Source of the DNA: Clostridia bacterium
GTDB lineage: Bacteria > Bacillota > Clostridia > Christensenellales > Borkfalkiaceae
Assembly (NCBI GenBank): GCA_017463105.1
Contig: JAFTPU010000012.1
Location: forward strand, 93,022-157,021
Direction of reading: 5' to 3'
Length of the DNA: 64,000 bases
The notes below the pieces were generated by a model. It saw only the letters and a list, made by a program, of their open reading frames with translations. It ran no database searches and had not been told where the DNA came from. A program made the position numbers and the translations under genes. Each line of letters starts with the position of its first letter. The first letter of the stretch is position 1. Below are positions 1,094 to 25,591 of the stretch, piece by piece.

Positions 1094-1684
1094 TTAGTTT
1101 GCGTCGAGGTATGTCAAAACAATTGTTTTGATTGCGTGAGCAGCTTTTTCGCCTTTTTCATCTTTAATCGCACGGTATGCGTCAAGCAATTCTATTTCAT
1201 CGGCAGAAAGCTGTTCCTTGTATTCGGGTATGACGCCTGTGGCTTTTTCCTCGTCCGTCCATTTTATAGTAGGTTTGATGCCAGAGGAAAAAACGAGGGC
1301 TTCTAAGGAAACTTTATTAAACGAATTATCCGCAATTTTTCTTAAATCCACAAATGTAGGTTGTGTTTGTCTATCTATGATTTTTTTCAATTCCTCAACG
1401 TCAATAGCGCAAGCCTTGGCAAATTCTTCTAAACTACGTTGCCCGCGTGCATAATTGATTAAATCGCTTAATTTTAAGTTCGGAAAATTTTGTTGACTCA
1501 AATGCCCTAAAAGATAATCTGTTGAGACGTTGAAAATAGTTGCTAACTTACATAGCGTGTTATGATCGGCTTCGCGTTCGTTTTGCTCGTATCGCTGATA
1601 GGCTTGGGGAGTACAACCAAGTATCCTTGCAACGTCAGCTTGCGTAAGACCGCTTAATTTTCTGATGTTTTTTAAGTTGTTCAT
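1094..1684 (-). CDS. XRE-family CI-like phage repressor
   Basis: Lysogeny repressor candidate of 196 aa. Residues 5-58 form a helix-turn-helix of the HTH_3 type (LTQADVARILGCTPQAYQRYE), followed by the common end FNVSTDYLLG. The rest is helical and lacks the Ser/Lys dyad of LexA-type autocleaving repressors, so induction would need another route, such as an antirepressor. The start ATG follows AAGGAGA. It is transcribed toward the integrase and away from a region with three 17-bp operators, which it probably binds. The exact role is inferred from position. Confidence 0.85.
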   Translation of the reverse strand: MNNLKNIRKLSGLTQADVARILGCTPQAYQRYEQNEREADHNTLCKLATIFNVSTDYLLGHLSQQNFPNLKLSDLINYARGQRSLEEFAKACAIDVEELKKIIDRQTQPTFVDLRKIADNSFNKVSLEALVFSSGIKPTIKWTDEEKATGVIPEYKEQLSADEIELLDAYRAIKDEKGEKAAHAIKTIVLTYLDAN

Positions 1685-1741: not shown

Positions 1742-1819
1742 TACACCGAAATGGTAAAAAACGCTTGACAACGCACCAAAACGGTGTTATACTGATATCG
1801 AAAACACCGAAATGGTGTT
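1742..1819. promoter_or_regulatory. Three-operator array of the lysogeny switch
   Basis: Three 17-bp sites share the palindromic pattern AACACCGAAATGGTGTT: 1742-1758 (right arm degenerate), 1772-1788 and 1803-1819 (perfect arms). Start-to-start spacing is 30 and 31 bp, about three helical turns. Site 2 lies between the -35 and -10 of the rightward promoter and site 3 just after its start, so binding should shut that promoter. Confidence 0.82.
1765..1793 (+). promoter_or_regulatory. Rightward early (lytic) prophage promoter
   Basis: TTGACA (1765-1770), 17-bp spacer, TATACT (1788-1793), close to the sigma-A consensus. Start expected near 1800. The transcript first runs antisense across the exonuclease gene and then reaches the early genes from 2831. 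Confidence 0.82.
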
Positions 1820-1834
1820 TTATAAAAACAAAAC

Positions 1835-2737
1835 TTATTCAATCAAGGCGATAAAATCCTTTTCGGTAAGAAGTTCTATGCTTTGCCCAAGCGCGATAAG
1901 TTCTTGTGCCTTTTTATATTTGGACGTTGCAGAATCGCATCCGACGACGAGGATATTCGTTTTTCTTGTGACGGAGTTTGCGAGTATACCTCCGCGATTG
2001 ACAATCAATTGTAAAGCAGATACGCGGTTTATGGAAAGTTTCCCCGTGATAACACAAACTTTGCCGTAAAAAGGGTGGTTTTCGTCAAATTCGGTAACGG
2101 TGGGGAGAATATCGGCGGGCTTACCTGCAAAGCGTTGGTCGGGATAAAAAACGCTGATATTTCTGTCGAGTGCAGTATGCCAAATACAATCGTATAAAGC
2201 CTTCGTGGTTTGACAGTCCGCTTCGGCTCTATGGGCGGGAACAGGCAAACCCAAGACCTCGGCAAGATATCCCAGCTTATGACAGCTATATTCACGGAAA
2301 ACTTTTCGTGAAAGCGTAAGAGTATCCATATAGTCGTTTAAAAAAGGCTCGTTAAATAATTTGGCGGTATTTTCGGTAATAAACCGCAAGTCAAAGGTTA
2401 CGTTATGTCCGATAATTACATCGTCGCCGACAAAGGCAAGGAAATTCTTTAAAACCTCTTCAAGCGAGGGCGCAAGAGCCACCATATCGTCCGTAATCCC
2501 CGTCAGTTTTTGAATATGTTTGGGAATCGGGGCGGCGGTTTTTATAAGCGACGAAAAAGTATCGCAAATTTGATTATTGCGGACGCGCAAGGCGGTAATT
2601 TCCAACAAAATATCGTCTTCGGGAGAGAAGCCCGTAGTTTCAATGTCTACTACGCAATAGTCAAATAAAATTTCGCAAAGCGGGTTGCCGTAGCAGGGTT
2701 GTTCGCGTTCGATGGGGTTGTAAATAGCAATTTCCAT
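1835..2737 (-). CDS. DnaQ-like DEDDh 3'-5' exonuclease with C-terminal BRCT domain
   Basis: Predicted 3'-5' exonuclease of the DNA polymerase III epsilon superfamily, 300 aa. All DEDDh residues can be placed: D31/E33 in DIETTG, D116 in HNVTFDLRF, H169 and D174 in AHRAEAD. Residues about 225-300 form a BRCT-like domain (FYGKVCVITGKL and later NILVVG), as in some bacterial exonuclease-BRCT proteins and DNA ligase. The start ATG follows GGAG. It lies between the early promoter and the first early gene but on the opposite strand, so it may be a moron-type cargo gene. Its substrate is unknown. Confidence 0.9.
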   Translation of the reverse strand: MEIAIYNPIEREQPCYGNPLCEILFDYCVVDIETTGFSPEDDILLEITALRVRNNQICDTFSSLIKTAAPIPKHIQKLTGITDDMVALAPSLEEVLKNFLAFVGDDVIIGHNVTFDLRFITENTAKLFNEPFLNDYMDTLTLSRKVFREYSCHKLGYLAEVLGLPVPAHRAEADCQTTKALYDCIWHTALDRNISVFYPDQRFAGKPADILPTVTEFDENHPFYGKVCVITGKLSINRVSALQLIVNRGGILANSVTRKTNILVVGCDSATSKYKKAQELIALGQSIELLTEKDFIALIE

Positions 2738-2800
2738 AGATAAAGCTCCGTTGTTTGATAATTCATTTTATCATACGAAGAAATAAAAATCAAATAAAAA

Positions 2801-2816
2801 TTGCAGTCAACTGCAA
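2801..2816. repeat. Dispersed palindrome, copy 1
   Basis: TTGCAGTCAACTGCAA, arms TTGCAGT and ACTGCAA around CA, followed by an A run. It lies intergenically, just before the ribosome binding site of the gene at 2831. Same motif at 7585, 10999, 20678 and 29725. Confidence 0.75.
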
Positions 2817-2830
2817 AAAGGAGGTAAATA

Positions 2831-3043
2831 GTGACGTTTAAGGAATTGTTAAAGAAAAAGGATATCCACGGCGCGCAGCTTGCACGGAAAATAGGCTGTT
2901 CGAGAGCTTCTATATCCGCTTGGACTTTGGGTAAAAGTACACCGAGCTTGGCATATTGCCGATTGATTGCTACGGCATTGGGGATTTCCGTAAACGAGGT
3001 TGTCAATTGTTTTGTAAAAGATGAAAATAGCATTAAAAAGTAA
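2831..3043 (+). CDS. Small XRE helix-turn-helix protein, Cro-like position
   Basis: A 70-aa protein that is almost entirely one helix-turn-helix (GAQLARKIGCSRASISAWTLGKS, then LGISVNEVV). The GTG start is chosen because AAGGAGG precedes it at 7 nt. As the first rightward gene after the early promoter it could be a Cro-type regulator or a regulator of the DGR genes that follow. Its operator is not evident. Confidence 0.75.
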   Translation: MTFKELLKKKDIHGAQLARKIGCSRASISAWTLGKSTPSLAYCRLIATALGISVNEVVNCFVKDENSIKK

Positions 3044-3092
3044 ACTCCGTTGTCGCCAAACCAACCAAAATACAATTTAAAGGAGAATAAAA

Positions 3093-3701
3093 ATGAAAAA
3101 CTATATATGTATCAATGGCATAAAAACAGAGCTCACGGATGATCAGATGAAGCTGCTTGAAATTTTGAACGAGCCTGTCGCAACGTTAAGTGCCGACGGG
3201 GCGATTGCAAAAATTGGGAAATACGAGTTTATCGTGTTGAAGAATGATAAAACGCTTGGCACGGTAGAGTTGCTTTTGAAGAATACGCTCGGTGACGATA
3301 CCGTATTCGGCGATACTTGTGATTTTAAAACGAGCAAGGTAAAAGGTATTCTCGACACTTTTGCAAAGCAGGTCGAAGAGATTGTCGGGGAGGACAATCT
3401 GCTTGCGCACAATGTTGATTTAACGGCGTTAGACGGTCTGAAAGATTACGGGAGCGTAGAAACGAAAATGTCCTTGCTTACGCTTGCACAATATCAAGAA
3501 TACATAGAAATCCTTGACCGTGATATATTAGGCGCTTGGTGGTGGTTGGCTACGCCGTGGAGTACGCCTAAACACAATTACGAAAAAGTGGTATTATGCG
3601 TTTCGCCGCGCGGTTATGTTTACTTCAATTTCAGTGACTACGGCGGGGACGGCGTTCGTCCGTTTTGTGTCTTAAAATCTAATATCTTTGTATCTAAATA
3701 A
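3093..3701 (+). CDS. DGR target protein 1, C-type-lectin-like fold (DUF6273-like)
   Basis: Variable protein of the retroelement, 202 aa. Residues about 35-150 resemble the DUF6273/formylglycine-generating-enzyme-like C-type lectin fold, ending in the WWWLATP motif (149-155). The variable repeat covers residues about 169-191, starting at CVSPRG and ending at GVRPF, 11 residues from the C-terminus. There is no signal peptide or membrane segment, so it is cytoplasmic or a virion component by default. Start ATG follows AAAGGAG. A paralogous target follows 15 nt downstream. The ligand is unknown; display-type binding is the known role of such targets in other phages. Confidence 0.9.
   Translation: MKNYICINGIKTELTDDQMKLLEILNEPVATLSADGAIAKIGKYEFIVLKNDKTLGTVELLLKNTLGDDTVFGDTCDFKTSKVKGILDTFAKQVEEIVGEDNLLAHNVDLTALDGLKDYGSVETKMSLLTLAQYQEYIEILDRDILGAWWWLATPWSTPKHNYEKVVLCVSPRGYVYFNFSDYGGDGVRPFCVLKSNIFVSK
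3597..3665 (+). repeat. DGR variable repeat 1 (VR1)
   Basis: Aligned to the template core at 4680-4719, VR1 core 3615-3654 differs at 14 positions and every one is an adenine in the template. Flanks TGCGTTTCGCCGCGCGGT and GGCGTTCGTCCGT are unchanged. Product residues across the core read YVYFNFSDYGGDG. Confidence 0.93.
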
Positions 3702-3716
3702 AAGGAGAAAATAAAA

Positions 3717-4259
3717 ATGGAAAACAAAAAAAATCTAATGAAAGTAGGTGTCGGCGAGGTGTTCAATATCGCAGGGTTTGATTTTATCAAATTTTACGAC
3801 GAAAACGGAAATACGGTAGCGGTGGCGAAAGACAGTTGGTTTAGCTCTGTGTTTGGGGATAACAACAATTTTGCGAAAAGTAAGCCTTTGAAACGGTTAG
3901 TAAAAGAATACCTCCCGAAAATCGAGGCGGCAATAGGCGCGGAGAATATCGTGGCGCACGAGGTAGATTTGCTTTCTATGGACGGTTCGGATAAATGGGG
4001 AAAAGTAAATTGTAAAATAAGTATTCCCACGTTTGATTTTTACCGAAAGAACGTAAAAGTCTTTGATAAGCATAAACTCGATAGTTGGTGGTGGCTTGCA
4101 ACACCTGATACAACCACTGACCATTACAACCACGATTATTGGGTTTCTTGCGTTTCGCCGCGCGGTCATGTACGCAACTATTACAGTCGCAGCAGCGATT
4201 GCGGCGTTCGTCCGTTTGTAATTTTTGTATCTTCTATCTCTGTATCTTGTGAGGAATAA
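3717..4259 (+). CDS. DGR target protein 2, C-type-lectin-like fold
   Basis: Second variable protein, 180 aa, paralogous to its upstream neighbour in the middle and C-terminal parts (for example IVAHEVDLLSMDG against LLAHNVDLTALDG, and WWWLATP at 124-130). Its N-terminus is shorter and different. The variable repeat spans residues about 144-167 (CVSPRG to GVRPF), followed by a Ser-rich tail. No export signal is visible. Start ATG follows AAAAGGAG. Tandem targets under one template mean each can be rewritten independently. Confidence 0.9.
   Translation: MENKKNLMKVGVGEVFNIAGFDFIKFYDENGNTVAVAKDSWFSSVFGDNNNFAKSKPLKRLVKEYLPKIEAAIGAENIVAHEVDLLSMDGSDKWGKVNCKISIPTFDFYRKNVKVFDKHKLDSWWWLATPDTTTDHYNHDYWVSCVSPRGHVRNYYSRSSDCGVRPFVIFVSSISVSCEE
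4146..4216 (+). repeat. DGR variable repeat 2 (VR2)
   Basis: VR2 core 4167-4206 differs from the template core at 12 positions, all template adenines, giving HVRNYYSRSSDCG. Five positions (core 1, 7, 16, 22 and 29) are changed in both VR1 and VR2; the rest differ between the two, indicating independent rewriting. Confidence 0.93.
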
Positions 4260-4262
4260 AGT

Positions 4263-4631
4263 ATGGCTGACACGGATTTGAAAGTGATAGTAAAGGCAAA
4301 AGAGCTTGCCGTACATACGTTCAAATTAACGTCGAATTGTAACAGATACCCAAAGAAATTTCGGCATTCTCTTGTCGATAAAATGCAAATAAAAAGCCTT
4401 GATATTTATACGACGCTGTTTGAAGCAAACAGGATAAATAATCAATCGCATAAAAGTGCAAGGCTTGAAATGATAACGAGAGCGATAGCATATTGCGACG
4501 AATTACTATTCTTCATTGAGTTGTCTATGAATTTAGAGTTATTAACGGACAAATCGGCGGGCTATTGGACGAAAATGGTTTCCGACGTGAAGTATATGTC
4601 TATCGCTTGGAGAACGAAAGAAAAACAGTAA
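4263..4631 (+). CDS. avd: Avd-like accessory variability determinant
   Basis: A 122-aa all-helical protein fitting the four-helix-bundle Avd family of DGRs: helices about 8-25, 35-58, 64-90 and 96-118, with basic stretches. In characterised DGRs Avd forms a pentamer that binds the reverse transcriptase and template RNA and is needed for mutagenic retrohoming. Start ATG follows GAGGAATAAAGT, 3 nt after the target-2 stop. Target, avd, template, RT is the classic order of phage BPP-1. The assignment rests on context, length and helicity. Confidence 0.82.
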   Translation: MADTDLKVIVKAKELAVHTFKLTSNCNRYPKKFRHSLVDKMQIKSLDIYTTLFEANRINNQSHKSARLEMITRAIAYCDELLFFIELSMNLELLTDKSAGYWTKMVSDVKYMSIAWRTKEKQ

Positions 4632-4638
4632 TTTAAAC

Positions 4639-4799
4639 AGGTTGTGCGTTGTATTTTCTCTTGCGTTTCGCCGCGCGGTAATGTAAACAACAATAACAGT
4701 AACAACAACGAAAACGGCGTTCGTCCGTATTGGTGTAATGTTCGACAGAGTAGGCAACAGCCGAAATCAATACACACACAACAAAAGAACGCACAACCT
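4639..4799 (+). ncRNA. Probable DGR template RNA domain closed by a 12-bp inverted repeat
   Basis: AGGTTGTGCGTT (4639-4650) and AACGCACAACCT (4788-4799) are perfect inverted repeats that bracket the template repeat and about 55 nt of spacer. Transcribed, they would form a closing stem with the template in the loop, comparable in position to the structured spacer required for cDNA priming in BPP-1. The RNA ends are not known; the stem is directly visible. Confidence 0.65.
4659..4731 (+). repeat. DGR template repeat (TR)
   Basis: Invariant donor sequence, rich in AAC/AAT codons across 4680-4719 so that adenine mutagenesis reaches many amino acids. It shares both flanks with VR1 and VR2. The 3' GC-rich GGCGTTCGTCCGT is the counterpart of the initiation-of-mutagenic-homing region. 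Homology fades after about 4731. Confidence 0.93.
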
Positions 4800-4832
4800 T
4801 TCCGAAAGGATAAACAAAAAGGATTATGTTGT

Positions 4833-5906
4833 ATGACCGACTTTGAAAAGGTGATAGATTTTCAAAATATGTATAAAGCATACCGAAAATCACGGGCGGG
4901 TAAAGGCTTTAAGACAAGCTCGGCAAAATTCAATTTAATGGCTTTGGACGGAATAAACACCCTTATAGAGCAGTTAAAGAATAAGACTTATAAAATATCG
5001 GCTTATAACGAATTTAAGGTTTACGAGCCGAAAGAGCGCGTTATACAAACGACCTCGTTTAAAGATAAGGTCGTACAGCATAGTCTATGTGATAACGTTA
5101 TTCTACCAAGGTTGCAAAGCGTATTTCTTTACGATAATTGCGCGGGGCAAAAGGGGAAAGGTACGTTATTCGGGCTTGATAGATTAAGCGATCAGATGAA
5201 AGCTTTTTATGAAAGCTACGGTTTCGACGGCTATATTCTGAAATGTGATATTTCAAAATTTTTCTATAACATATCCCATAGGCAATTAAAGGATATCGTC
5301 AACTATTATTTTTCGTACGATAAAGATATTTGTTGGCTTTGTAATTTGTTTATAGACAGCACCGAGGGAAAAGGCATACCGCTCGGAAATCAAATAAACC
5401 AAGGCTTTGCTCTGCTTTATTTGGACGGTATGGATAAGCTGATAAAGTACGAGTTAAAAATAGAATTTTACGGGCGGTATATGGACGATTTCTATTTGAT
5501 ACACTGGGATAAAGAGTATCTAAAACATTGTCTTGGTGTAATAGCTGCGTTTTTGGAAACCTTGGATTTAACACTGAACGGAAAAACACAAATATTCCCG
5601 TTTAAAAACGGCGTAAATTATCTCGGCTTCCATACATACATAACGCCGACGGGCAAGGTTATCCGTAGGCTGAAAAATCAAAATAAGCGGAACGCACAAA
5701 AAAGATTTCTGCGAATAGCAAAGCTTGTTGCAAAAGGCAATCTGACGAAAGAGAAGTTTTATGCTTCTTATAATGCGTGGAAAAATCATATATCACACGG
5801 AAATTGCTATAATCTATCAAAATCAATAGATAAGAAAATCAAAAGCTGTTTAGGCGAAGGAGAAAATCAAAATGCGAAAACAACAAAAAAGAACGGCGTT
5901 TGCTGA
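4833..5906 (+). CDS. DGR reverse transcriptase
   Basis: RNA-directed DNA polymerase of 357 aa that would copy the template with adenine-directed errors. Motifs: KCDISKFFYNI with D139, GIPLGNQINQ at 181-190, and the catalytic YMDD at 216-219, followed by VNYLGFHTY. The GNxxxxQ motif replaces the QGxxxSP of most retroelement RTs and is typical of DGR enzymes, although here INQ stands where TSQ is usual. ATG 4833 is preferred, with AAAGGA upstream. The frame is open back to a GTG at 4644 through the template repeat, so a longer form cannot be excluded. Confidence 0.94.
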   Translation: MTDFEKVIDFQNMYKAYRKSRAGKGFKTSSAKFNLMALDGINTLIEQLKNKTYKISAYNEFKVYEPKERVIQTTSFKDKVVQHSLCDNVILPRLQSVFLYDNCAGQKGKGTLFGLDRLSDQMKAFYESYGFDGYILKCDISKFFYNISHRQLKDIVNYYFSYDKDICWLCNLFIDSTEGKGIPLGNQINQGFALLYLDGMDKLIKYELKIEFYGRYMDDFYLIHWDKEYLKHCLGVIAAFLETLDLTLNGKTQIFPFKNGVNYLGFHTYITPTGKVIRRLKNQNKRNAQKRFLRIAKLVAKGNLTKEKFYASYNAWKNHISHGNCYNLSKSIDKKIKSCLGEGENQNAKTTKKNGVC

Positions 5907-6096
5907 TTTATTGCGGTCGCGTAATATCAACGCGCGCAAGCTTGGGGAATTGCTCGGGTATAAGGATAAATCCCGTACTACCGTCTATAAATGGGTTTAC
6001 GGAAAAGGGGAGCCGAATGCGGCTACGATGTTGAGATTGATGGAAATACTTGACGTGTCGGCAGAAGAAATTTTACGCGTTTTTGCGGGCGAATGA
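5872..6096 (+). CDS. Small XRE-like helix-turn-helix protein
   Basis: A 74-aa basic protein with one helix-turn-helix (NARKLGELLGYKDKSRTTVY, then MEILDVSAEEIL). It overlaps the end of the RT gene by 35 nt and has GGAG upstream, which suggests translational coupling. It may be a regulator of the DGR or early operon, or a DNA-binding accessory to replication. No target site is visible. Confidence 0.75.
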   Translation: MRKQQKRTAFADLLRSRNINARKLGELLGYKDKSRTTVYKWVYGKGEPNAATMLRLMEILDVSAEEILRVFAGE

Positions 6097-6112: not shown

Positions 6113-6322
6113 ATGAACAAGATAACGATACCGCAATGGTTAAGAAACGAGAAACCTGATGAGGCACATTTTTTAGAGATTATCAACGTGGCGTTGGAAG
6201 ATATGCCAGGGATCTCGCTTGCGGACTTTGCAAAAACGATTCACGACGTACTTTACGAGGAGTCTATGGAACGGCTGAAACGGGCAGAGGCAAGGCAGTT
6301 TAGAAACGGAGAACAAAAATGA
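6113..6322 (+). CDS. Hypothetical early phage protein, 69 aa
   Basis: Acidic, helical protein (MNKITIPQW to GEQK) with no recognised domain. ATG 6113 is preferred over an upstream start because it sits after a GGGGGCAGG purine tract and outside the previous gene. It overlaps the replication initiator by 4 nt and is probably co-translated with it. Confidence 0.6.
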   Translation: MNKITIPQWLRNEKPDEAHFLEIINVALEDMPGISLADFAKTIHDVLYEESMERLKRAEARQFRNGEQK

Positions 6323-7020
6323 TTAAGGACGAAAATTATTATACGGTGCAAGGCTGGATGCGAAACCGTCTGCACCTAAAAGGCAACGATTTGCACGTTT
6401 ACGCAATGCTATATTCCTTTTCGCAAGACGGACAATCGGAATTTCGCGGGTCCCTCGATTATATGTCGGAGTTTACCGGTGGAAGCGAGCGAAATATAAG
6501 GCGTAGCTTAAACCGTCTTGAAGAAAATGGGTTAATAGAAAAGGTTGTTTATAATGAAAAAACAGGTAAAACAAACGGATTTAAATGTGTCTCCATAGAC
6601 GACCTAAAAGTGATAGTAAATTGGGGCGGACAAAATGTCCACCCCCCGTTGGACAAAATGTCTGCCCCCGTTGGACAAAATGTCCGCCCCATACCTTATA
6701 ATAATATCTACAATAAAGTAGGTATAACAGTAAGAAAGAAAGAAATTGAAAAAAAGAATAACAAGCAACAGGCGCGCGCGCCTGCGCATGAGGGGAAATC
6801 TCACGAGGAAATTATGATGGAATGGGGTGTCCCAAAGCCGTTACGGCACGAGCTTGGATTATGGCTTACGTCCTGTTATAACAAAGGGCATTTGGTGTTG
6901 AACGAAGTCTTTGAGGATTTGCTCGGCAACCTGTACGATAAATACGGAAACGACTTTAACGCAATGCGCGAAGTAGTGCGAAATGCCACGGAAAGCGGTT
7001 ACGTGCGTATCGTGGTGTAG
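6319..7020 (+). CDS. Phage replication initiator / replisome organiser with internal origin
   Basis: A 233-aa protein whose N-terminal part (about 1-100) is a winged helix of the phage replisome-organiser type (LHVYAMLYSF, FTGGSERNIRRSLNRLEENGLIE). A linker at 104-125 encodes repeated GQNV(H/R)P, produced by three iterons in the DNA. The C-terminal 150-233 may contact the helicase loader. A bipartite protein with origin DNA in the middle of its gene parallels lambda O. No separate helicase or loader gene follows, so host proteins may be used. DNA-binding function is likely; the specific family is inferred. Confidence 0.75.
   Translation: MIKDENYYTVQGWMRNRLHLKGNDLHVYAMLYSFSQDGQSEFRGSLDYMSEFTGGSERNIRRSLNRLEENGLIEKVVYNEKTGKTNGFKCVSIDDLKVIVNWGGQNVHPPLDKMSAPVGQNVRPIPYNNIYNKVGITVRKKEIEKKNNKQQARAPAHEGKSHEEIMMEWGVPKPLRHELGLWLTSCYNKGHLVLNEVFEDLLGNLYDKYGNDFNAMREVVRNATESGYVRIVV
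6628..6750. other. Candidate phage replication origin: three iterons plus AT-rich tract
   Basis: GGACAAAATGTCC occurs at 6628-6640 and 6673-6685, with a one-base variant (final C to T) at 6651-6663. Each is a 5-3-5 palindrome, 22-23 bp apart, separated by C-rich spacers. An AT-rich, purine-skewed stretch from 6690 to about 6750 follows and could be the unwinding element. Confidence 0.7.
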
Positions 7021-7029
7021 GGAGGCATT

Positions 7030-7620: not shown

Positions 7621-7632
7621 AGGAGAAACACA

Positions 7633-9009: not shown

Positions 9010-9019
9010 GGTAACAGTG

Positions 9020-13159: not shown

Positions 13160-14926
13160 ATGCTTCGCTGGATAACCGATTATATCCGACACGTCGAAAA
13201 TCATCCCCAAGAATTTAACGAGGACGTCAAAAACAACGTTCGACAAATCAAAGAGCTGATATCTCGAAAGAACGTGTATTACAAGGAAGCCGACCCGTTG
13301 GCGTTTCAAGACTTCGCTCGAATGTTCCGCCATCGTGAGGGCGAATGGGCGGGCGAGCCGATTGAACTCAACCGCGAGCAGAAATATATCGTAGCTTGTA
13401 TCCTCGGTATCAAAATATACGACAAGAAAAAGGAACGGTATATCCGCTATTTTACGGAAATGGATTTATTCGTCGCCCGAAAGTGGGGCAAGGATACGTT
13501 CATCGTTCCCTTAATTGCGTATTTCGTGGGAATAGATAAAGAGCCGTCGGCACTTTGTCAGATTGTAGCGGAAAATCTGACGCAATCAAAGCGAACGTAT
13601 AAGCTTATACAAAAGAATATCGAAGACGGCGATTTAAGCGAATGGTTCGTAGAGAATAAAACGGAGAAATACATTTATTGTCCGTATACCGAGGGCGAGA
13701 TACATTACCTGTCGGGGCGTTCCAAGGGTAAAGACGGACCAAACCCCAGCGTAGGCGTTGCGAACGAGGTACACGAAATAACTTCGTTTAATCAGTATAC
13801 GGCGTTGAAAAGCGGTATGGGCGCACGCTCGCAGCCGATGATGATCGTTATCTCCTCGGCGGGTATTACGCCCGAAAGCTTGTATGAAACACTCCACGAA
13901 AGAAACAGAAAGTTTCTTAAAAAAACGAAGCTGGGCGCGAACGACAGAATATTTGCTTTGATGTTCGGTATTGACGACACGGACGATTATCGCGACGAAA
14001 CGACTTGGATTAAAGCGAACCCCGCAATGTACGAGGGCAGACCGTCGATGTCCTATCTTCGTCAACAGTTTGAAGATTGTAAAAACGACCCCGTTTTGCT
14101 AAATAACTTTATCGCAAAACAGCTGAACCGCCAAATCGGGGCAAGTATCGACTATTTCGATATGGTTGCGATAAAAAACGCAATGCGAAAGGTATTGAAA
14201 ACGGACTTCGACAACACCTACGCCGTCGGCGGCGTAGACCTTGCCGAAACAACCGACCTTTGTAACGCGACAGCGCAGATTCTTACCAAAGAGGGCAAAT
14301 TCATTTACTTGCAAGCGTACTTTATCGCAGCGGATTGCCTTGCGAGAAATTCCGCAAAAGATAAGCAGGACTATCAAAGAATGACGAATTTGGGCACGGA
14401 AAACCGCGTGACCTCGGAGCTGGTAATAATCACTCCGGGCGCGTACGTGCAAAAAGAATACGTAACCCGTTGGTTCGTAATGCTCCGCGATGAGTTTCAA
14501 ATCAATTTCTTAAAAATCGGATATGACCGTGCGCTGTCGAAAGAATGGCTTACGGATATGCAAGAGAACGGCTTTTCGCATGAAAAGGTTATTTACAACA
14601 AGGAAGATCATACGACGGAGCGGGATTACGGGATATTGACGGAAGTGGCACAAGGCGGCTGGACGCTAAGCGAGCCGATCAAGATTGTCAAATCTCTTTT
14701 CGACAGCGGGCGATTGGTCGCCGACGTGAATAATAAGCTGTTCGCCTACTGTTTTTACAATCTCAAAGTACGACAGGACACGAACAATAATCTTTCGCCG
14801 CATAAGGCGAAATCGACGGGGCATATAGACGGTGCGATCGGCGTGTTTAACAGCTTTGTGGCGTATCAGCGCGCAAAAGGTTTAAAGGAGTACATAGAGC
14901 AAATCCCGCAATATTTTGCGGTATAA
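13160..14926 (+). CDS. terL: Terminase large subunit (ATPase-nuclease)
   Basis: A 588-aa DNA-packaging motor. The Walker A-like motif ARKWGKDT is at 106-113. The Walker B position reads VGVANEVHE (about 198-206), so Asn202 stands where the usual Asp precedes catalytic Glu203. The motif III-like VISSAG follows. The RNase H-like nuclease half begins at GGVDLAETTD near 355 and ends near HIDGAIGVF. Length is normal. The Asp-to-Asn change (AAC for GAC) may weaken Mg-ATP binding. Confidence 0.95.
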   Translation: MLRWITDYIRHVENHPQEFNEDVKNNVRQIKELISRKNVYYKEADPLAFQDFARMFRHREGEWAGEPIELNREQKYIVACILGIKIYDKKKERYIRYFTEMDLFVARKWGKDTFIVPLIAYFVGIDKEPSALCQIVAENLTQSKRTYKLIQKNIEDGDLSEWFVENKTEKYIYCPYTEGEIHYLSGRSKGKDGPNPSVGVANEVHEITSFNQYTALKSGMGARSQPMMIVISSAGITPESLYETLHERNRKFLKKTKLGANDRIFALMFGIDDTDDYRDETTWIKANPAMYEGRPSMSYLRQQFEDCKNDPVLLNNFIAKQLNRQIGASIDYFDMVAIKNAMRKVLKTDFDNTYAVGGVDLAETTDLCNATAQILTKEGKFIYLQAYFIAADCLARNSAKDKQDYQRMTNLGTENRVTSELVIITPGAYVQKEYVTRWFVMLRDEFQINFLKIGYDRALSKEWLTDMQENGFSHEKVIYNKEDHTTERDYGILTEVAQGGWTLSEPIKIVKSLFDSGRLVADVNNKLFAYCFYNLKVRQDTNNNLSPHKAKSTGHIDGAIGVFNSFVAYQRAKGLKEYIEQIPQYFAV

Positions 14927-19074: not shown

Positions 19075-19477
19075 TTGGAAGGGCAGAAAACGTAAGCCGC
19101 GGAGCAAGCGACAATCGTTAAAGCCTACTCTAAACGAGCTCCAAGCCGCGCTTTCGGAGTTTCTCGACGATATTCAAGCGGAAATTTACGAAAAAGTAGA
19201 TCGCGGCTTGGATAAAGCCACGGAATACTTAAAGGGCAAACTGGAAGACGCGACGCCTATCGACAGCGGTATAACGCGTGGAAAGTGGGAAGCAGACCTC
19301 CGTTATACGAACGTGCGGTATATCAATAACGTACAGTGTAACGAAAACGGCATTCCTATCGTCAATCTTTTGGAGTTTGGAAGCAGAGGCAAACCGTTCG
19401 TGCGGAAGACGGTTGCGGAAAGTCAAAACGAAGTAATCAACATCATAAAAGGAGAAATCGAAAATGGGAGCTCTTGA
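19067..19477 (+). CDS. HK97 gp10-like tail-completion protein
   Basis: A 136-aa protein with a very basic N-terminus, a long helix and the family-type motif EDATPIDSGITRGKW, followed by NLLEFGSRGKPFVRKTV. This matches the gp10/tail-component family that joins tail to head. It overlaps both neighbours by 8-14 nt. Confidence 0.78.
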   Translation: MADWKGRKRKPRSKRQSLKPTLNELQAALSEFLDDIQAEIYEKVDRGLDKATEYLKGKLEDATPIDSGITRGKWEADLRYTNVRYINNVQCNENGIPIVNLLEFGSRGKPFVRKTVAESQNEVINIIKGEIENGSS

Positions 19478-20120
19478 TAAAAACAATAAAGACCTCGTGC
19501 AATACAACGTGCAAAACGCGGTGTATGCGCTTGCCGACGATACGGCGGGTACGGTCAAGCCTTTGACCTTTATGAACACCTTTTCCAAGGACAGAAACGT
19601 AAAGGTTAAGGATTTTTACGGCGACGGCGAGGTACAGGATTCGGCGTATTCCGATTTAACGATATCGGGCGCGGTCGGCGTGACGGCGCGCGACATGGAT
19701 TTCGAAAAAGATATCGGACTCGTTGAAACGCTGAAAGACGGATTGTCGGCGGAGCTTGCCGTAACGGGCACGAAACGCGTGCATTTGGGTTTGGAAACCT
19801 TTATCAAAAAGAAAGGGCAGGCGGCGCAGGTAAAGCGCGTATGGGTATTCAATTTACAAATTTCGCCCCCGTCGGAGTCCTTGACGCAGACGAAGGAAGA
19901 CATTACCGAAAGCACGTTCGATTACAGCTACGTAGGCTACGGCGTAAACGTCAAATCGGCTGACGGTTCAGCCGATTACGTGGATGAAAACGGTATGCGT
20001 AAAAAGGCGTTTACCGTATCGGCTCGGCCCGATGATGCGGGTTATAAAACTTTTTTTGAGAAAGTGCCCGTACCTACCGTCGCCACCACTACAACGACAA
20101 CCACAACCACCACGGAATAA
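19464..20120 (+). CDS. Major tail tube protein, phi13 family type
   Basis: A 218-aa tube subunit. The N-terminal pattern VQNAVYALADDTAGTVKPLT and the middle DSAYSDLTISGAVGVTARDM fit the phi13-type major tail protein of siphophages. The C-terminus ends in a run of ten Thr (VATTTTTTTTTTE), an unusual low-complexity tail. A hairpin follows the gene. Confidence 0.88.
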   Translation: MGALDKNNKDLVQYNVQNAVYALADDTAGTVKPLTFMNTFSKDRNVKVKDFYGDGEVQDSAYSDLTISGAVGVTARDMDFEKDIGLVETLKDGLSAELAVTGTKRVHLGLETFIKKKGQAAQVKRVWVFNLQISPPSESLTQTKEDITESTFDYSYVGYGVNVKSADGSADYVDENGMRKKAFTVSARPDDAGYKTFFEKVPVPTVATTTTTTTTTTE

Positions 20121-20125
20121 ACAAA

Positions 20126-20155
20126 AAACGCTCCTTTCGGCAGAATGGAGCGTTT
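20126..20155 (+). terminator. Attenuator-type hairpin after the tail tube gene
   Basis: AAACGCTCC, 12-nt loop, GGAGCGTTT, then only TTT. A partial terminator here would lower expression of the downstream chaperone and tape measure relative to the abundant tube protein. Confidence 0.6.
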
Positions 20156-20158
20156 AAA

Positions 20159-20217
20159 GGGGCGATCCGGCTTGGGCGTAGCGCCATTGCGTAGCCGTTG
20201 AACTCGGCTGTCGCCCT
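20159..20217 (+). other. Compact structured element between tail tube and chaperone genes
   Basis: GGGGCGA (20159-20165) pairs with TCGCCCT (20211-20217). Inside, CGGCT pairs with AGCCG and a small GGCG/CGCC hairpin fits, with GCCG/CGGC as an alternative. It ends 26 nt before the next start codon and could act as an RNA structure in the leader. Confidence 0.4.
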
Positions 20218-20243
20218 TCACCTTATGGCGCAAGGAGGATATT

Positions 20244-20624
20244 ATGAAAATTTATTTACCGGTCGTCACGAAAAATGAGTACGACAATAAAAGCAAAACA
20301 CACTTATTCGAAACGCAGGAACGGTCGTTTGAATTCGATTGTTCTTTGGGCTGCCAAATGAAATGGGAAGCAAAATTCCCTGCGCAAGCGGAAAAGGAAT
20401 CTATTGTAGATTACGTAAAGCGTGTTTCCGAATATCCGCATTCTGCGGCGACCTTGCTTTCAAAAATGAAAGCCGTCTATTGCTTCATAAACGGCGAAAA
20501 CCTTTCGTTTGAATCATTCGTCAGGATGTTCGACTTTACCCGTCGTGAGTACGTAGAAACGCTCACGGAGCGATTTAAGGAGATATTCGACCTTTTCGAA
20601 AGCGAGGCGGCAGAAAAAAACTGA
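20244..20624 (+). CDS. Tail assembly chaperone, zero-frame product (gpG-like)
   Basis: A 126-aa protein between tube and tape-measure genes, where siphophages encode the chaperone that coats the tape measure. N-terminal beta strands (MKIYLPVVTKNEY, ERSFEFDCSLGC) and a helical C-terminal half. The last codons contain an A AAA AAC slippery heptamer just before TGA, so a second product extended in the -1 frame to 20914 is expected. Start after AAGGAGG. Confidence 0.82.
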   Translation: MKIYLPVVTKNEYDNKSKTHLFETQERSFEFDCSLGCQMKWEAKFPAQAEKESIVDYVKRVSEYPHSAATLLSKMKAVYCFINGENLSFESFVRMFDFTRREYVETLTERFKEIFDLFESEAAEKN

Positions 20625-20914
20625 GTGGGCATCGGAAGGAACTCGTGCGGATATTTTCGAAAATCCGCACGGCGGATTTGCAGTCAACTGCAAAAAACTT
20701 TCCGATGCCGAAATCGCTGGAGTATATTAAAATCCTGGGAAACGAGGGGATTGCGTGGCAGGGCTTACACGTAACGGACGCTTTTAGCCTCGTTTGTTCT
20801 ATCCGTATTGACGCGGCAAAAAAATATTTGCATATCAAAGGACAGGAACGGCTGAAAAAAGCGGGGATAAATTCTTTTACTAGCGCAACGCAGGAAGATT
20901 TCGACAGTTTATAA
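20244..20914 (+). CDS. Predicted frameshifted tail chaperone fusion (gpGT-like)
   Basis: A -1 shift at 20615-20621 would join the 126-aa protein to a downstream domain (about 20622-20914), giving about 223 aa. The downstream domain (PKSLEYIKILGNEGIAWQGL, then QERLKKAGINSF) has the size expected of a T domain that recruits tube protein. The -1 phase is exactly that seen in lambda G/GT. It also contains dispersed palindrome copy 4 in its linker. Confidence 0.72.
20615..20621 (+). promoter_or_regulatory. Programmed -1 frameshift site A AAA AAC
   Basis: Canonical X XXY YYZ heptamer in the correct phase (GAA AAA AAC TGA). A 26-nt hairpin with GTGCGGAT/ATCCGCAC arms lies downstream at 20645-20670, a little far for a classic stimulator. 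Confidence 0.78.
20678..20693. repeat. Dispersed palindrome, copy 4
   Basis: TTGCAGTCAACTGCAA plus A run, identical to copy 1, here read as LQSTAKN within the frameshift extension of the tail chaperone. Confidence 0.75.
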
Positions 20915-20924
20915 GGAGGTTATT

Positions 20925-22631
20925 ATGTCCCAAAAGAGCTATACCGTAAAAATCGGCGCGGATACGCAGGATTTTATTAAAGGCATAAGAACAGCTGAAA
21001 AAGAAATCGGTAAAACGCAAAAAACGGCGAATAACCTTTCAAAGAGCCTCGACCTTAAATTCAGCGATACCAAGCTGACGGCGGCGCAAAAGCAATACCA
21101 AAAGGCGTTGGCACAAACGGAGGCAAACGCCGACAGCTTGCGTAAAAAATTACAAGAACTGGAAGAGGGCGGTCACGTCGATACAGCCGATTATTCCGAG
21201 CTGGAATTGCTGTTGGCGAAAACGGAAACGAAAGCGGACGAGCTCCGTCAAAAGCTTGAAAAGCTGAACGACGTAAAGGTAGAGAAGCTTTCGGAAAAAT
21301 TCGAAAGCTTAGGCGGTAAGCTTACGAACGCGGGGAAAAAGATGCAGGGTCTTTCGCTCGGCGCGGCGGGTGTTATTGCGGGCGGTGCGGCGATCGTGAA
21401 ATCGGCGGCAACGGCGGGCGCGGAGATAGACGACCTTTCTCAACGCTTCGACGTTTCGGCGGAAACCATCCAACGCTGGCAGTATCTCGCTATGCAGGGC
21501 GGCGTAGACGTGGACGTGTTCACGAAGGGACTTGTAAAAATGCGCGCGGCGGTTGCTGACGTGGCGACGGGAACGAACAACAAAGCGACGGAATCGCTGT
21601 TTGCGTTGGGACTTGACCCTACGCAGTTTTCTTCTACGGAGGAAATGGTCAACTCCATCACGCAAGCGCTTGCTTCCATGGAAGATAAAACGCTGCAAAC
21701 AGCGTATGCAAACGAAATATTCGGCGATAAAATCGCCACGGAGATGCTGCAATATATCAACGCGGGCACGGAGGATATCGCCAAGTGGAACGCCGAATTC
21801 GATGCGATGTCGCCGCTTACAAGCGAACAGGTTAAAAATCTTGCCGATCTTGACGATCAGTTTAACCGTTTAAAAACTTCGATGTCGAACGCGGGGGCAG
21901 AGCTGGGCTTGGCGTTCGCGCCGATTATGGAAAAGGCGATCGGGTGGATAGAGGAACACGTTATTCCCGCCATAGAGAAGCTTTCGGAAAAATTCAGCGA
22001 GCTTCCCGAGGGAACACAAAACTTTCTTTTCGGCGGGTTGGCGCTCATAGCATTCGGCGCGCCGTTTTTGAAATTTTGCGGGGGTATTACGGGCGGAATC
22101 GGCAAAGTGGTAAAAGCCTTTAAAGATTTACAGCCTGCACAATTAAAAGCCGCGGGCGGTTTTACGGCGGTGTTGGCGGCGGCTGGCTTGGCGTTTGCTT
22201 TATTTGAAAATTGGGGCAAGATGGAAACTTGGCAAAAGGTTTTAGGCGTAATCGGTGTCGTCACCGTTGCGGTGCTGGGCTTGGCGATGGCGTTCGGCGC
22301 GTTTCATTCGGCGGTAAGCATGGGGCTTGCCGTTGCGGGTATCATTGCGGGTATCGCCGCAGTTTCCACCGCCTTGCTTACGGCAAAGGACGAGTTTGAC
22401 GTTCCCGATACCTCGGGAAGCTCGGGAACGACCCCTTCAACCGATTTTTCATACGACCCCGACGATTACGATATTCCCGAATATCCAACCACGGGTAACA
22501 GCTATACGGAAAACTCGTCAAACGACACCTATAACGTGACAGTCGTGATAGAAGGTTCGGAGCTTTCCAAAGAAGAGATTGCCGAAGAGGTCAGCAAAAA
22601 AATCGCCACGCTGGCGCAGTCGAGGGGGTAA
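20925..22631 (+). CDS. Tail tape measure protein
   Basis: A 568-aa protein that sets tail length. Residues 1-150 are coiled coil (SYTVKIGADTQDFIKGIRTA), followed by the tape-measure core (FDVSAETIQRWQYLAMQGG), hydrophobic segments near 410-500 (MAFGAFHSAVSMGLAVAGII and neighbours) and a short acidic Ser/Tyr-rich tail. It is short for the family, so a short tail is predicted. Start after AAGGAGG. Confidence 0.92.
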   Translation: MSQKSYTVKIGADTQDFIKGIRTAEKEIGKTQKTANNLSKSLDLKFSDTKLTAAQKQYQKALAQTEANADSLRKKLQELEEGGHVDTADYSELELLLAKTETKADELRQKLEKLNDVKVEKLSEKFESLGGKLTNAGKKMQGLSLGAAGVIAGGAAIVKSAATAGAEIDDLSQRFDVSAETIQRWQYLAMQGGVDVDVFTKGLVKMRAAVADVATGTNNKATESLFALGLDPTQFSSTEEMVNSITQALASMEDKTLQTAYANEIFGDKIATEMLQYINAGTEDIAKWNAEFDAMSPLTSEQVKNLADLDDQFNRLKTSMSNAGAELGLAFAPIMEKAIGWIEEHVIPAIEKLSEKFSELPEGTQNFLFGGLALIAFGAPFLKFCGGITGGIGKVVKAFKDLQPAQLKAAGGFTAVLAAAGLAFALFENWGKMETWQKVLGVIGVVTVAVLGLAMAFGAFHSAVSMGLAVAGIIAGIAAVSTALLTAKDEFDVPDTSGSSGTTPSTDFSYDPDDYDIPEYPTTGNSYTENSSNDTYNVTVVIEGSELSKEEIAEEVSKKIATLAQSRG

Positions 22632-22634
22632 ATT

Positions 22635-23486
22635 ATGCGAAAATTTGCGTTTGTCGTATTCGGTATCGATAATACGATTATCGACCGTACGCCGCTCGAT
22701 CTCGTGACTGATCTCGGCGGTTTGGGCTGGAAACTCAAGCTTACTACGATTTCGGGCGACGTCGTTTCGGTGATCACGAAGGTGGTGCAGGAAAAGCAGT
22801 CCGTAAGTCTTACTTTAAACTTTTTGGGACGTGGCTACGAAAAATACGCGATACTCTCGCAATGGCTGCAAAAATATGCGCGGGCGGAAAATCATCTTGC
22901 GCTCGAATACGACGACGGCGTATCGAAAAGATACGTGGAGGGGCGGGTAACGGCGCTTGGGCGTACGGAAAAGGACGAGTATCAAAATCTCGTCGCGCCG
23001 CTCACTTTTACCCCTTTGACGCCGTTTTTCCGCGTGATCGAGAACAGTATCAAAATACAGGTTTCCGCAATCGGAAAATGCTATCCGTTCAAATATCCGT
23101 ATTCGTACGGAAAAAATAAGCTCGAGAACAATGAAATCGATAATCCGTATCTTGCGGACATACCCGTCACAGTGACGATTTACGGCGCAATATCCAATCC
23201 TACCGTCTCTTTGCTTTATCTTGACTCGGATTACAATTGGACGGTATATAATACGGTCAAATTCCCCGATCTCGATTTGACGGAGGGACAGCATATACTT
23301 ATCAACAGCGCGCAAAGAAAGATTTGGTATTTCGACGGCGCTTCTTTACTGGATTACTCGGCACATACCGATCCGTCGCTCGACAGTTTTTTGATGGCGC
23401 AAAACGGGGTAAGCAGGATATCGGTCAACCTCGAAACGCTGGACAGCGGTCGACTGGAAGGAAATTGGAGGCAATATACTTTATGA
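22635..23486 (+). CDS. Distal tail protein (Dit-like)
   Basis: A 283-aa hub protein at the tail tip. The N-terminal half has the Dit pattern (LTTISGDVVSVITKVVQ, SLTLNFLGRGYEKYAIL, VEGRVTALGRTEKDEY, then PLTFTPLTPFFR); the C-terminal half is a beta-sandwich (TVTIYGAISNPTVSLLY) like Dit galectin-type domains. It overlaps the next gene through ATGA. Confidence 0.82.
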   Translation: MRKFAFVVFGIDNTIIDRTPLDLVTDLGGLGWKLKLTTISGDVVSVITKVVQEKQSVSLTLNFLGRGYEKYAILSQWLQKYARAENHLALEYDDGVSKRYVEGRVTALGRTEKDEYQNLVAPLTFTPLTPFFRVIENSIKIQVSAIGKCYPFKYPYSYGKNKLENNEIDNPYLADIPVTVTIYGAISNPTVSLLYLDSDYNWTVYNTVKFPDLDLTEGQHILINSAQRKIWYFDGASLLDYSAHTDPSLDSFLMAQNGVSRISVNLETLDSGRLEGNWRQYTL

Positions 23487-24541
23487 TCGTTTCGTTTTAC
23501 GACGCGGGTTTTAAAGGATTGCAAAACAATGCGTCGCTTGTTGTAGACAATGCAAGCTATAAGTTGGTAAAACGGGGCGTAGAGTTCGATTCGATGTCTT
23601 GCAAATGCGAAGCGTTTACAGGGGATGCACAGCCGACGTATTGCGTGGTCAAGGATGATCGGGGACGATACGTTTACGGTTGCTTGGCGGGCGTTCCGCA
23701 GTTGAATAACGACAATCAGACGGAGATTCAGGCATCCGATTTAAAGCTTATGCTGGATTGCGACGTGGCGCTGGATACGTCGCAGACCTTTTTTTCCCTT
23801 TTCGATTATTTACGCGCGGTATTCGACACGTGGAAGGAATATACGCTTCAGTATGACGTAGAGCTCGTTTGCCCCGAGGAAAACGTTTCTTGGGTCTACT
23901 TGAAGCCACCCGAGGGCGGTTATGTGTGCTATAACGTATGGCACGATCTGATCGCGCCGTATTTGAAGTTTTACGGCTTGTATATGACGTCGAAAATCGA
24001 TCTTGTAAACAAGAAGGTCGTCTTTACTGTCGGAAAATCGATGATAACGCCGAAAGCCGTCAGACTTTGGGAATATGGCATAAAAAATTTCGGAAAGGTG
24101 ACGACAGGTGTTTCCGAAGCGCAATGTATCGTATACGATAAGACCGGTGGAACGTTGGTGTATGGATATCATTGGGTCTTGGGTCAAAACAATACCGTTA
24201 CTGTCGCCCATATTGATGCGTTTGATTATTTACCGACGATATATCCCATTCGACGTAAGATCGTATGGAAAGAGACGGAAAACTATGAGGAAGAAGGAAC
24301 CTCGCTGTTGAACGAAGGGAACAGAGAAGCTTTGGAGATCCTTACGAAGTATATGTTCAACGAGAACATCGAGCTGAGTAATTTCGAGGCGGATTTTTCC
24401 ACGCGCTTCGATATCTACTTGTCGAGAGGAGGTAATAAATACAAGTCGTTGCCTTGCGGCGAGCTTCATTACGATGCGAACGGGCTTGTTAAAGTACAAA
24501 TCGGTTACCGTTTTACGGGAATAGAATTTTTATTGAGGTGA
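23483..24541 (+). CDS. Tail-tip / baseplate protein (Tal-like position)
   Basis: A 352-aa protein. ATG 23483 overlaps the Dit stop and is preferred to an upstream start that lies inside Dit. The sequence is beta-rich with two hub-type regions (DSMSCKCEAFTGDAQPTYCV; GYHWVLGQNNTVTVAHIDAF), fitting the N-terminal hub of tail-associated proteins. The lytic C-terminal domain often fused to Tal is absent. Confidence 0.68.
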   Translation: MIVSFYDAGFKGLQNNASLVVDNASYKLVKRGVEFDSMSCKCEAFTGDAQPTYCVVKDDRGRYVYGCLAGVPQLNNDNQTEIQASDLKLMLDCDVALDTSQTFFSLFDYLRAVFDTWKEYTLQYDVELVCPEENVSWVYLKPPEGGYVCYNVWHDLIAPYLKFYGLYMTSKIDLVNKKVVFTVGKSMITPKAVRLWEYGIKNFGKVTTGVSEAQCIVYDKTGGTLVYGYHWVLGQNNTVTVAHIDAFDYLPTIYPIRRKIVWKETENYEEEGTSLLNEGNREALEILTKYMFNENIELSNFEADFSTRFDIYLSRGGNKYKSLPCGELHYDANGLVKVQIGYRFTGIEFLLR

Positions 24542-24544
24542 AAT

Positions 24545-25573
24545 ATGGCGATTAGGCTGATAAGACAGGAATCGGATACGCCGAACGTATCGAATACGGA
24601 CGATGCGAGAATGGCGCGTTATGCCTATGGCGGGCGCGACGGTGTAGTAAAAGGTTACGGGCAAGAGTGTGCATATACGGTAAACGGCAAAACCTTTTCG
24701 GTGGGAAGTGGGTGTATCGTATTGCAGGGCTGGGAGGTCTTGTTGGACGCAAACGGTTGGTCCATTACGATGAGTACGGCAAGCGTCGCGCGCAATTTTT
24801 TGGTTTATTTGGAAATCAATCTTGCCACGCAAACGGCGGCAATCAATACCGTTTATACGACGGGAACTACGACTCCGGTGATCAATTCCGGGGACGATCT
24901 TACGAATAATACGACAGGAACGGCAAGATTGTCGCTGTATCGTTTTACGGTCGATTCGAGCGGTGTGATCATCGACGGAACGAATATCGCTTTGAATAAT
25001 GTAAGAACGTGTTTTTCTGTATTGGATTACGATCCTACCGTAGACGTAAAAAAATCTATAGAAGAATTATCGGTTCGACTTGAAGAACAGGGTTTTAAAC
25101 AGGCAACCGTCGAGGATGGCGGAATCGCTTTAAATAGTGACTGGACGGTTGCCGTTACCGAAGGTAGTATTGTGAATGGAGAGATAGTCTATACACAAAC
25201 CTTTCCGCAGGGAGTAATAATGAAGTCGGGCAAATTGTGTCTTTTAAAAATTTTGCAATGTGCAACGGAGAGTAAGGAGAATTTTGAGGTAGAAACTTCC
25301 ACTGGGAAGATACGATTACAAGGCATCATAACGACTTTGGATAGTAGTTTCGCGCCCAAAGAAAAGCAAGTATTCAATTGTGATTTTTTTGCTATTGCTT
25401 ATGATTCGACTGTTGGGAAAAACATACAAGGCTCAGCAAAGGGGACATTTACAATAGGGACAGACGGCATTGTTTCTTTTAACGGAAGTATTAGTGATAC
25501 CGAATATTCCTCAATACCGGAAGAAACCTATTTAGGCAAAATTTGGATGTCTATGTGTGGATATGAAATTTGA
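24545..25573 (+). CDS. Baseplate upper / tail fibre attachment protein
   Basis: A 342-aa protein. Residues 1-150 (YAYGGRDGVVKGYGQECAYT, FSVGSGCIVLQGWEVLLDA) resemble the N-terminal domain of siphophage tail-appendage proteins that dock on Dit. A helix near 163-185 may trimerise. The C-terminal part is beta-rich and encoded in more AT-rich DNA than the upstream tail genes, suggesting exchange. The same N-terminal type appears in the next gene. Confidence 0.65.
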   Translation: MAIRLIRQESDTPNVSNTDDARMARYAYGGRDGVVKGYGQECAYTVNGKTFSVGSGCIVLQGWEVLLDANGWSITMSTASVARNFLVYLEINLATQTAAINTVYTTGTTTPVINSGDDLTNNTTGTARLSLYRFTVDSSGVIIDGTNIALNNVRTCFSVLDYDPTVDVKKSIEELSVRLEEQGFKQATVEDGGIALNSDWTVAVTEGSIVNGEIVYTQTFPQGVIMKSGKLCLLKILQCATESKENFEVETSTGKIRLQGIITTLDSSFAPKEKQVFNCDFFAIAYDSTVGKNIQGSAKGTFTIGTDGIVSFNGSISDTEYSSIPEETYLGKIWMSMCGYEI

Positions 25574-25591
25574 TGTTTAAGAGGTATTTTT

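Follow-up and report, generated by a model that had tools for sequence, protein, structure and literature searches.

What does a hypermutation cassette do among the early genes of a prophage in a gut bacterium? Phage diversity-generating retroelements (DGRs) are mostly read as host-range devices. The element considered here lies in a 64,000-nucleotide stretch of a Clostridia bacterium genome (GenBank assembly GCA_017463105.1, contig JAFTPU010000012.1, positions 93,022 to 157,021, forward strand), hereafter the window. Positions 3093-5906 hold a complete DGR in the order target gene T1, target gene T2, accessory gene avd, template repeat (TR), and reverse transcriptase (RT) gene (Table 1). This identification is well supported: a first-pass annotation, made from the sequence alone, had proposed a complete phage DGR with two tandem targets in BPP-1 order, and every part was found in that order. 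The Avd-type gene adjoins TR, and each target gene carries a variable repeat (VR1 or VR2) at its C-terminal end. The RT sequence aligns with the reverse transcriptase in PDB 8ub7 (4.5e-33), which we take to be the BPP-1 enzyme, with the YMDD motif aligned and intact, and is the single RVT_1 match in the genome (a 1.29-Mb draft in 14 contigs). Comparison with relatives suggests an answer to the opening question: the T1/T2 pairing is conserved, the early position recurs, and the paired products may act in the cytoplasm.

The two repeats differ from their template at adenines. Over a 67-base core (TR 4662-4728), every mismatch falls at a TR adenine, 14 in VR1 (hypergeometric 3e-9) and 12 in VR2 (1e-7); a longer VR1 copy returned by the repeat finder (3594-3663) adds two non-adenine mismatches at its 5' end. 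With TR adenines treated as wildcards and at most three mismatches allowed, the 64-kb window yields three matches (TR, VR1, and VR2), and 100 shuffled sequences yield none. The VR ranges proposed earlier, 3597-3665 and 4146-4216, agree with these within two bases. The window cassette's own activity is putative.

Related prophages, where the first-pass annotation had asked for adenine-directed variation, do vary in this way. Across 71 of 73 TR/VR pairs, 764 of 1446 TR adenines differ, against 16 of 3333 other bases, a ratio that is optimistic because the scoring favors adenine mismatches. (The set comprises 24 earlier loci and 13 chosen GTDB loci; L080 was dropped, as were T1 and T2 of L113, with a low score.) Comparison of near-identical records is consistent with ongoing change. 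Over 11,926 bases, loci L043 and L078, which represent a single-target relative (RT 60% identical), are distinguished by 12 sites, every one of which lies within the 84-base VR and corresponds to a TR adenine; this activity signature points to mutagenic retrohoming in the single-target sister group. The two-target pair L053/L062 has seven differences in VR2 and none in VR1, with 29 others in the first 8,000 bases. Among the 71 pairs, A-to-C changes affect 42 of 665 TR adenines at first codon positions versus 3 of 764 at second positions, a bias that could reflect either selection or RT context. Where TR has an Asn codon, the VR most often encodes N, Y, D, G, S, or F.

How constant is the pair of targets? 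RT scans returned 77 loci from IMG/VR and 48 from GTDB genomes; clustering at 95% RT DNA identity reduced 134 loci to 58 distinct cassettes with RT identity of at least 50%. The labelled close relatives are draft genomes of Oscillospiraceae and other Clostridia, many from the hindgut of goat, sheep, yak, buffalo, and deer. Among the 35 distinct cassettes whose RT is at least 70% identical and whose upstream sequence is long enough, 32 keep both targets: 30 have them adjacent and two are split. The others are L015, with T1 alone, and two that look degraded (L104 and L111). At RT identities of 50-70%, two targets are present in four of 13 distinct cassettes with enough upstream DNA, and one target in nine. 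In the split cassettes (L038 and L055), T1 lies beside Avd and T2 is found 5.5-5.8 kb further upstream, with other genes between. The displaced T2 genes keep the adenine signature (L038:476-1003 with 6797-9047; L055:758-1285 with 6792-8681).

Phylogenies of targets and RT bear on the age of this arrangement. The target tree contains a T1 clade with 21 of 24 rows (support 96/93) and a T2 clade with 20 of 23 rows (100/100); with each target in a supported clade of its own, the pair is old in the main group. (L042 T1 and L080 T2 were dropped for internal stops at the borders used, and L015 has no T2.) The window RT sits inside a 30-row clade (100/99), and seven tail-module DGRs, including BPP-1, fall outside it. 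Evidence for co-evolution of T1 and T2 over and above common ancestry is weak: the partial correlation given RT is 0.21 over 31 loci, with 14 of 2000 permutations as high, a result that omits L015, L042, L048, L056, L062, L080, and L113 and is not taken as proof. Degraded-looking copies also occur: in L034 and L104 the RT match begins at residue 30 beside a T1 fragment, and in L079 it is in two pieces. In some phages, then, the DGR seems able to decay. Two contigs carry paired RT-like matches close together (L117:1393-2415 and 2897-3904; L074:370-1290 and 2480-3259).

T1 and T2 are evidently paralogues: their profiles align over 175 columns (probability 100, 5.9e-70), with the T1 amino terminus about 25-30 residues longer. 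Both resemble Pfam DUF6273 (PF19789), at 18.2 and 20.4 bits, below the curated cut-off of 23.5; among three relatives, L044 (25.0) and L056 (24.2) exceed it and L050 has no match. In published models of other DUF6273 targets, the fold is that of a C-type lectin and the VR forms a surface hairpin (PMC10743442, section 2.5), and by analogy T1 and T2 may adopt this fold. Sequence searches of solved structures gave no credible match to T1, T2, or Avd. Searched with the profiles of both targets, the window showed no third gene of this type; the sole exception is the frame containing TR and RT. A Pfam DUF6273 search of the genome is not sensitive, because T2 was the only match and fell below the cut-off. 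The earlier statement that the targets lack export signals agrees with simple hydropathy, by which none of 47 family targets has a hydrophobic signal or membrane-like stretch. Pfam likewise detected no Ig domain, Mtd-like amino terminus, other known virion-anchoring domain, or effector domain in either target.

The first-pass annotation also called the position unusual, with the cassette among early genes, close to the lysogeny switch, and the tail genes a long way off. In the window this is so, with a DnaQ-like/BRCT gene on the opposite strand intervening between repressor and cassette. Rightward from the cassette come a second helix-turn-helix (HTH) gene, a replication gene, and then HNH, terminase, portal, protease, capsid, and tail genes; the targets lie outside the tail module (about 19.5-28.4 kb). 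Flank, neighbor, and seven-sequence comparisons reveal a similar early setting in the sampled relatives. For the flanks, open reading frames (ORFs) of at least 110 residues were scanned with Pfam, downstream to at most 7 kb. The 112 upstream ORFs (22 loci) include HTH/cI, S24, integrase, DnaB, SSB, ParA, and methylases; the 134 downstream ORFs (20 of the same loci) include Rep, SSB, replisome organiser, sigma-like, terminase, portal, and capsid families. (Two remote T2 genes, of 114 upstream ORFs, and one very long ORF, of 135 downstream, were excluded.) No tail family appears among the 25 most frequent of 70 upstream and of 67 downstream families.

Immediate neighbors tell the same story. Twenty genes lie next to a cassette or one removed; PHROG assigns a named function to 12, none of them a virion gene. 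Upstream, these are RecT, a DNA methyltransferase, two ParB-like proteins, and a recombination directionality factor; downstream, two SSB, three replication initiation proteins, a Holliday resolvase, and RecT. The start of T1 overlaps the preceding same-strand ORF by 4 nucleotides in five loci (L003, L012, L021, L022, and L038), which suggests a shared operon. The sampled relatives' neighbors are regulatory, replication, and recombination genes; the early position, supported by several such comparisons, is not a quirk of the window prophage. The single-target group was represented by two loci, with methyltransferase and nucleotidyltransferase neighbors and, in one, a sigma factor (eight of ten ORFs matched a family). 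Two Tad2-like proteins (Thoeris anti-defence) occur among the 134 downstream ORFs, one about 1 kb downstream of its cassette (L026:10112-10615). The DNA methyltransferase and Tad2-like genes near some cassettes bear circumstantially on an anti-defence role.

The company of SSB, RecT, replication initiators, and a Holliday resolvase would also suit a purely mechanical explanation, in which the early position serves retrohoming, a process needing replicating, partly single-stranded DNA, whatever the targets do. Indeed, in a reconstituted BPP-1 system the preferred target orientation is described as set by replication direction (PMC12875486). This would account for the place of RT and not for targets without virion-type domains; moreover, the tail-module DGRs of nd12, Brigit, and BPP-1 manage without an early position, and T2 lies about 7 kb from RT in L038 and L055. 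We regard it as rather improbable.

Comparison of whole phages separates the cassette from the virion genes. Among the window prophage and six relative contigs (BLASTP, E 1e-5; ORFs of at least 70 residues; records G401 and G404 covered to base 40,000), T1/T2, Avd, and RT alone are common to all seven. Antisense frames of these genes are also shared, by fewer than seven sequences. The terminases form two sets of three, with the seventh contig in neither, and one capsid cluster holds two members. At the BLASTP level, these comparisons indicate that the cassette is independent of any one virion type. Tape measure gave no Pfam match over 16 records and 13 genomes, probably because these phages are a poor fit to that model; for three records, long ORFs were compared with PHROG instead.

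Could the targets nonetheless be virion proteins? They might be binders of receptors or of the environment, like Mtd and the tentaclins, that are encoded early and attached late. PMC8144416 (section 9) gives tail-protein annotations to most viral targets of DGR clades 1, 4, and 6. In addition, the T2 profile can be aligned to the nd12 tentaclin over its VR end (51 columns, probability 96.5), and a PHROG of Hoc-like head decoration proteins weakly matches T1 (4.2e-4). Set against these points are the missing Ig or other known anchoring domain in the window targets, the lack of any virion protein common to the seven sequences (by BLASTP, two contigs being covered to base 40,000), and record G401, in which the cassette runs antiparallel to portal and terminase. 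We consider this explanation unlikely, and carriage of T1 and T2 into virions the less likely outcome.

Known systems sharpen the comparison. The annotated DGRs of nd12, nd4, Brigit, Toutatis, Lelie, Shimadzu, and BPP-1 all adjoin tail or baseplate genes. BPP-1 shares the window's order (mtd with its VR; bbp7, presumably avd; TR; and brt), with an RT 31.4% identical; it differs in its target, an annotated tail protein of 381 residues without similarity to the T2 profile, the comparison having been made for T2 alone. Phages nd12 and nd4 share the DUF6273 scaffold, and their RTs are 49.9% and 42.1% identical to the window RT, respectively. They are described as two-target DGRs in which a tentaclin and a stand-alone DUF6273 protein, tgt2, are diversified from one TR, and their tgt1 carries Ig-like domains (PMC10743442); in our scan the nd12 Big_13 match fell below the cut-off. 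Unlike the window cassette, theirs follow the tail genes and precede an amidase. A 296-residue nd12 ORF upstream of RT, presumed to be tgt2, had no profile similarity to T2, and a VR scan of nd12 located the tentaclin VRs alone.

Faecalibacterium phages Lelie, CP11, Roos, and Pioen also have DUF6273 DGR targets, with two VRs in Lelie and CP11 (PMC11792537). The Lelie cassette differs in following baseplate genes, and its RT is 36.6% identical to that of the window; CP11, Roos, and Pioen were compared by description. The closest precedent that we found for a non-structural phage DGR target is that of the Quimbyviridae. As described, a hypervariable C-type-lectin target there lies outside the structural module, near defence and counter-defence genes; however, one of the two targets is near tail fibre genes, and the hosts are predicted to be mainly Bacteroidetes (PMC8008677). 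In the window, both targets are outside the structural region, in a phage of Clostridia. Our searches of open-access PMC papers turned up none that describes a DGR clade of the early region with DUF6273-like targets in pairs; such a description may still exist.

Proximity to the repressor raises a further possibility, that the lysogen expresses T1 and T2 as diversified sensors or blockers of superinfecting phages, to the benefit of the host. A superinfection-exclusion-type gene (30625-31104, minus strand; PHROG 4980, 1.1e-16) lies at the right end of the same prophage. Early phage genes are normally silenced by the repressor in a lysogen, and the cassette runs with the early genes; in addition, the targets show no effector domain. 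Although DGR-based immunity has been proposed for cells (PMC10053308), we find this explanation very doubtful here.

We favor early action in the cytoplasm, a form of the intracellular role that the first-pass annotation had raised as one possibility: T1 and T2 would be soluble, DUF6273-like binders, diversified in pairs and directed at a variable partner. Its chance of being right is about even, and it is the most likely reading because the cassette lies among regulatory, replication, and recombination genes, the virion genes of these phages differ, and the targets lack an obvious export signal, a recognised virion anchor, and linkage to tail genes. The proposed sequence of events begins with RT and Avd, which would copy TR RNA into cDNA with errors at adenines; the signature is read from the repeats and the enzymology by analogy with BPP-1, in which error-prone RT-Avd cDNA made from TR RNA is described as rewriting the VR (PMC12875486). 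The cDNA would then rewrite adenine-rich codons of VR1 and VR2 near the C-terminal ends of both paralogues, yielding two binders, apparently soluble, each with a variable face. To judge from the anatomy, these would be made early and work in the cytoplasm. The partner may be a host defence protein, a target of host takeover, or some part of a rival phage; each would be a moving target that justifies hypermutation.

Several observations weigh against this proposal. Early gene location is compatible with incorporation into virions, and proteins without a signal can leave the cell at lysis. Eight of the 20 neighbors are unassigned (five match families of unknown function and three match nothing at 1e-5), including the ORFs overlapped by T1 in L022 and L038, and the absence of tail families in the flanks covers the 25 most frequent families per side. 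Six target rows (L048, L056, and L062) fall outside both the T1 and T2 clades. Many near-identical pairs of relatives show identical VRs, so either the cassettes are not active all the time or both records of a pair derive from one sample. A second strain of the window phage was not found among viral contigs or among 57 genomes of the genus and 398 of the family; the best other RT is 33% identical in the former set of genomes and 76% in the latter, and the exact TR and VRs have no match in viral contigs. Before T1, a promoter scan gives just a weak site (9 of 12, 3000-3028), and read-through from the stronger site at 1765 would be antisense across the gene at 1835-2737. Finally, the authors who described other DUF6273 targets see possible receptor binders or structural proteins (PMC10743442, PMC11792537).

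A bolder version would make T1 and T2 an obligate two-chain intracellular recognition protein, each chain with a hypermutated face from the shared template: a self-evolving counter-defence binder of temperate Clostridia phages. This is a long shot. If true, it would put the two-chain logic of antibodies inside a phage early operon. Cytoplasmic action in any form would mean that phages direct the evolution of proteins against targets inside the cell, whether of the host or of a rival. A clade of small, apparently soluble, paired, early-encoded targets makes hypermutation of intracellular phage proteins directly testable, and the simple architecture of the T1/T2 pair is convenient for expression and binding work.

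The TR RNA may also have a conserved shape. The avd-RT interval is strongly conserved and holds a 12-bp stem whose arms bracket TR. All 187 of 187 cells are paired in the 17 sequences of the alignment from which the structure was both derived and scored. Both sides have changed at four of 11 counted pairs, against a shuffle mean of 1.2; two of 500 shuffles score as high, and each of six slid controls gives fewer. The tally of additional pair types, one measure of five, does not rise above shuffles (416 of 500), and the window RNA as a whole is no more stable than shuffles (z -0.65). A near-invariant GACAGAGTAGGCA motif lies 3' of TR, and together with the TR-bracketing stem it forms a candidate RNA family of this DGR clade. 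No BPP-1-like stem-loop beyond chance follows either VR.

Table 1. Features of the cassette and of the prophage around it (window coordinates).
Feature	Position	Strand	Evidence
Target T1, 202 aa, DUF6273-like	3093..3701	+	PHROG 9958 (unknown function) 1.8e-30; T1 clade in tree
VR1, 3' end of T1	3597..3663	+	14/14 mismatches at TR adenines
Target T2, 180 aa, DUF6273-like paralogue of T1	3717..4259	+	PHROG 9958 1e-31
VR2, 3' end of T2	4146..4215	+	12/12 mismatches at TR adenines
Avd accessory protein, 122 aa	4263..4631	+	PHROG 3206 'Avd protein of DGR' 4.3e-20; weak Pfam 23S IVP/bAvd
5' arm of 12-bp stem bracketing TR in DGR RNA	4639..4650	+	Changes on both sides in relatives
Template repeat TR, 22 adenines	4659..4728	+	Repeat finder; A-wildcard pattern
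3' arm of TR-bracketing stem	4788..4799	+	Same alignment as 5' arm
DGR reverse transcriptase, 357 aa, YMDD	4833..5906	+	RVT_1 1.2e-12; PHROG 1423 1.1e-105
cI-type repressor (HTH_3), lysogeny switch	1094..1684	-	HTH_3 1.6e-16
Three operator-like palindromes CACCRAAAYGGTG (at 1744, 1774, 1805)	1744..1817	.	Around plus-strand promoter-like site
DnaQ-like exonuclease with BRCT domain, between repressor and cassette	1835..2737	-	RNase_T 1.3e-33; BRCT 3.7e-7
Small HTH (Cro-like) gene directly 5' of cassette	2831..3043	+	HTH_3 5.7e-12; PHROG transcriptional regulator
HTH regulator, overlaps RT end	5872..6096	+	HTH_3 5.5e-8
Replication initiation/DnaD-like protein, early region	6319..7020	+	PHROG 270 6.1e-12; PHROG 186 1.7e-8
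Terminase large subunit, packaging/head genes	13160..14926	+	PHROG 9 7.5e-91
Tail genes (major tail, tape measure, Dit, fibre-like)	19464..28375	+	Window gene scans

The phage that carries the cassette is a temperate tailed phage, of siphophage type by its tail genes. Overlapping the window start is an integrase-like ORF, 25% identical (7e-10) to a G404 ORF grouped with a PHROG integrase; neither of two Pfam integrase models gave a match on the contig. Among the CACCRAAAYGGTG palindromes lies a consensus-like plus-strand promoter (1765-1793, 11 of 12), from which the cassette may be transcribed, although promoter-like sites are not commoner in this region than expected by shuffling (20 versus 17.9). 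The operator and promoter roles at 1744-1817 are putative. A palindrome at 2801 was rejected as an operator: it recurs at six places in the window, and the 1744-1817 candidates are better. Its sequence, TTGCAGTCAACTGCAA, or one-mismatch variants, occurs at 2801, 7585, 10999, 20678, 25898, and 29725, against a shuffle mean of 1.6, and some copies look like terminators. Record G405 has a relative of the DnaQ-like/BRCT gene close to its integrase. Two very large ORFs in the host portion of the window, 46268-53713 (2481 residues) and 59095-63513 (1472 residues), have lipoprotein-like starts.

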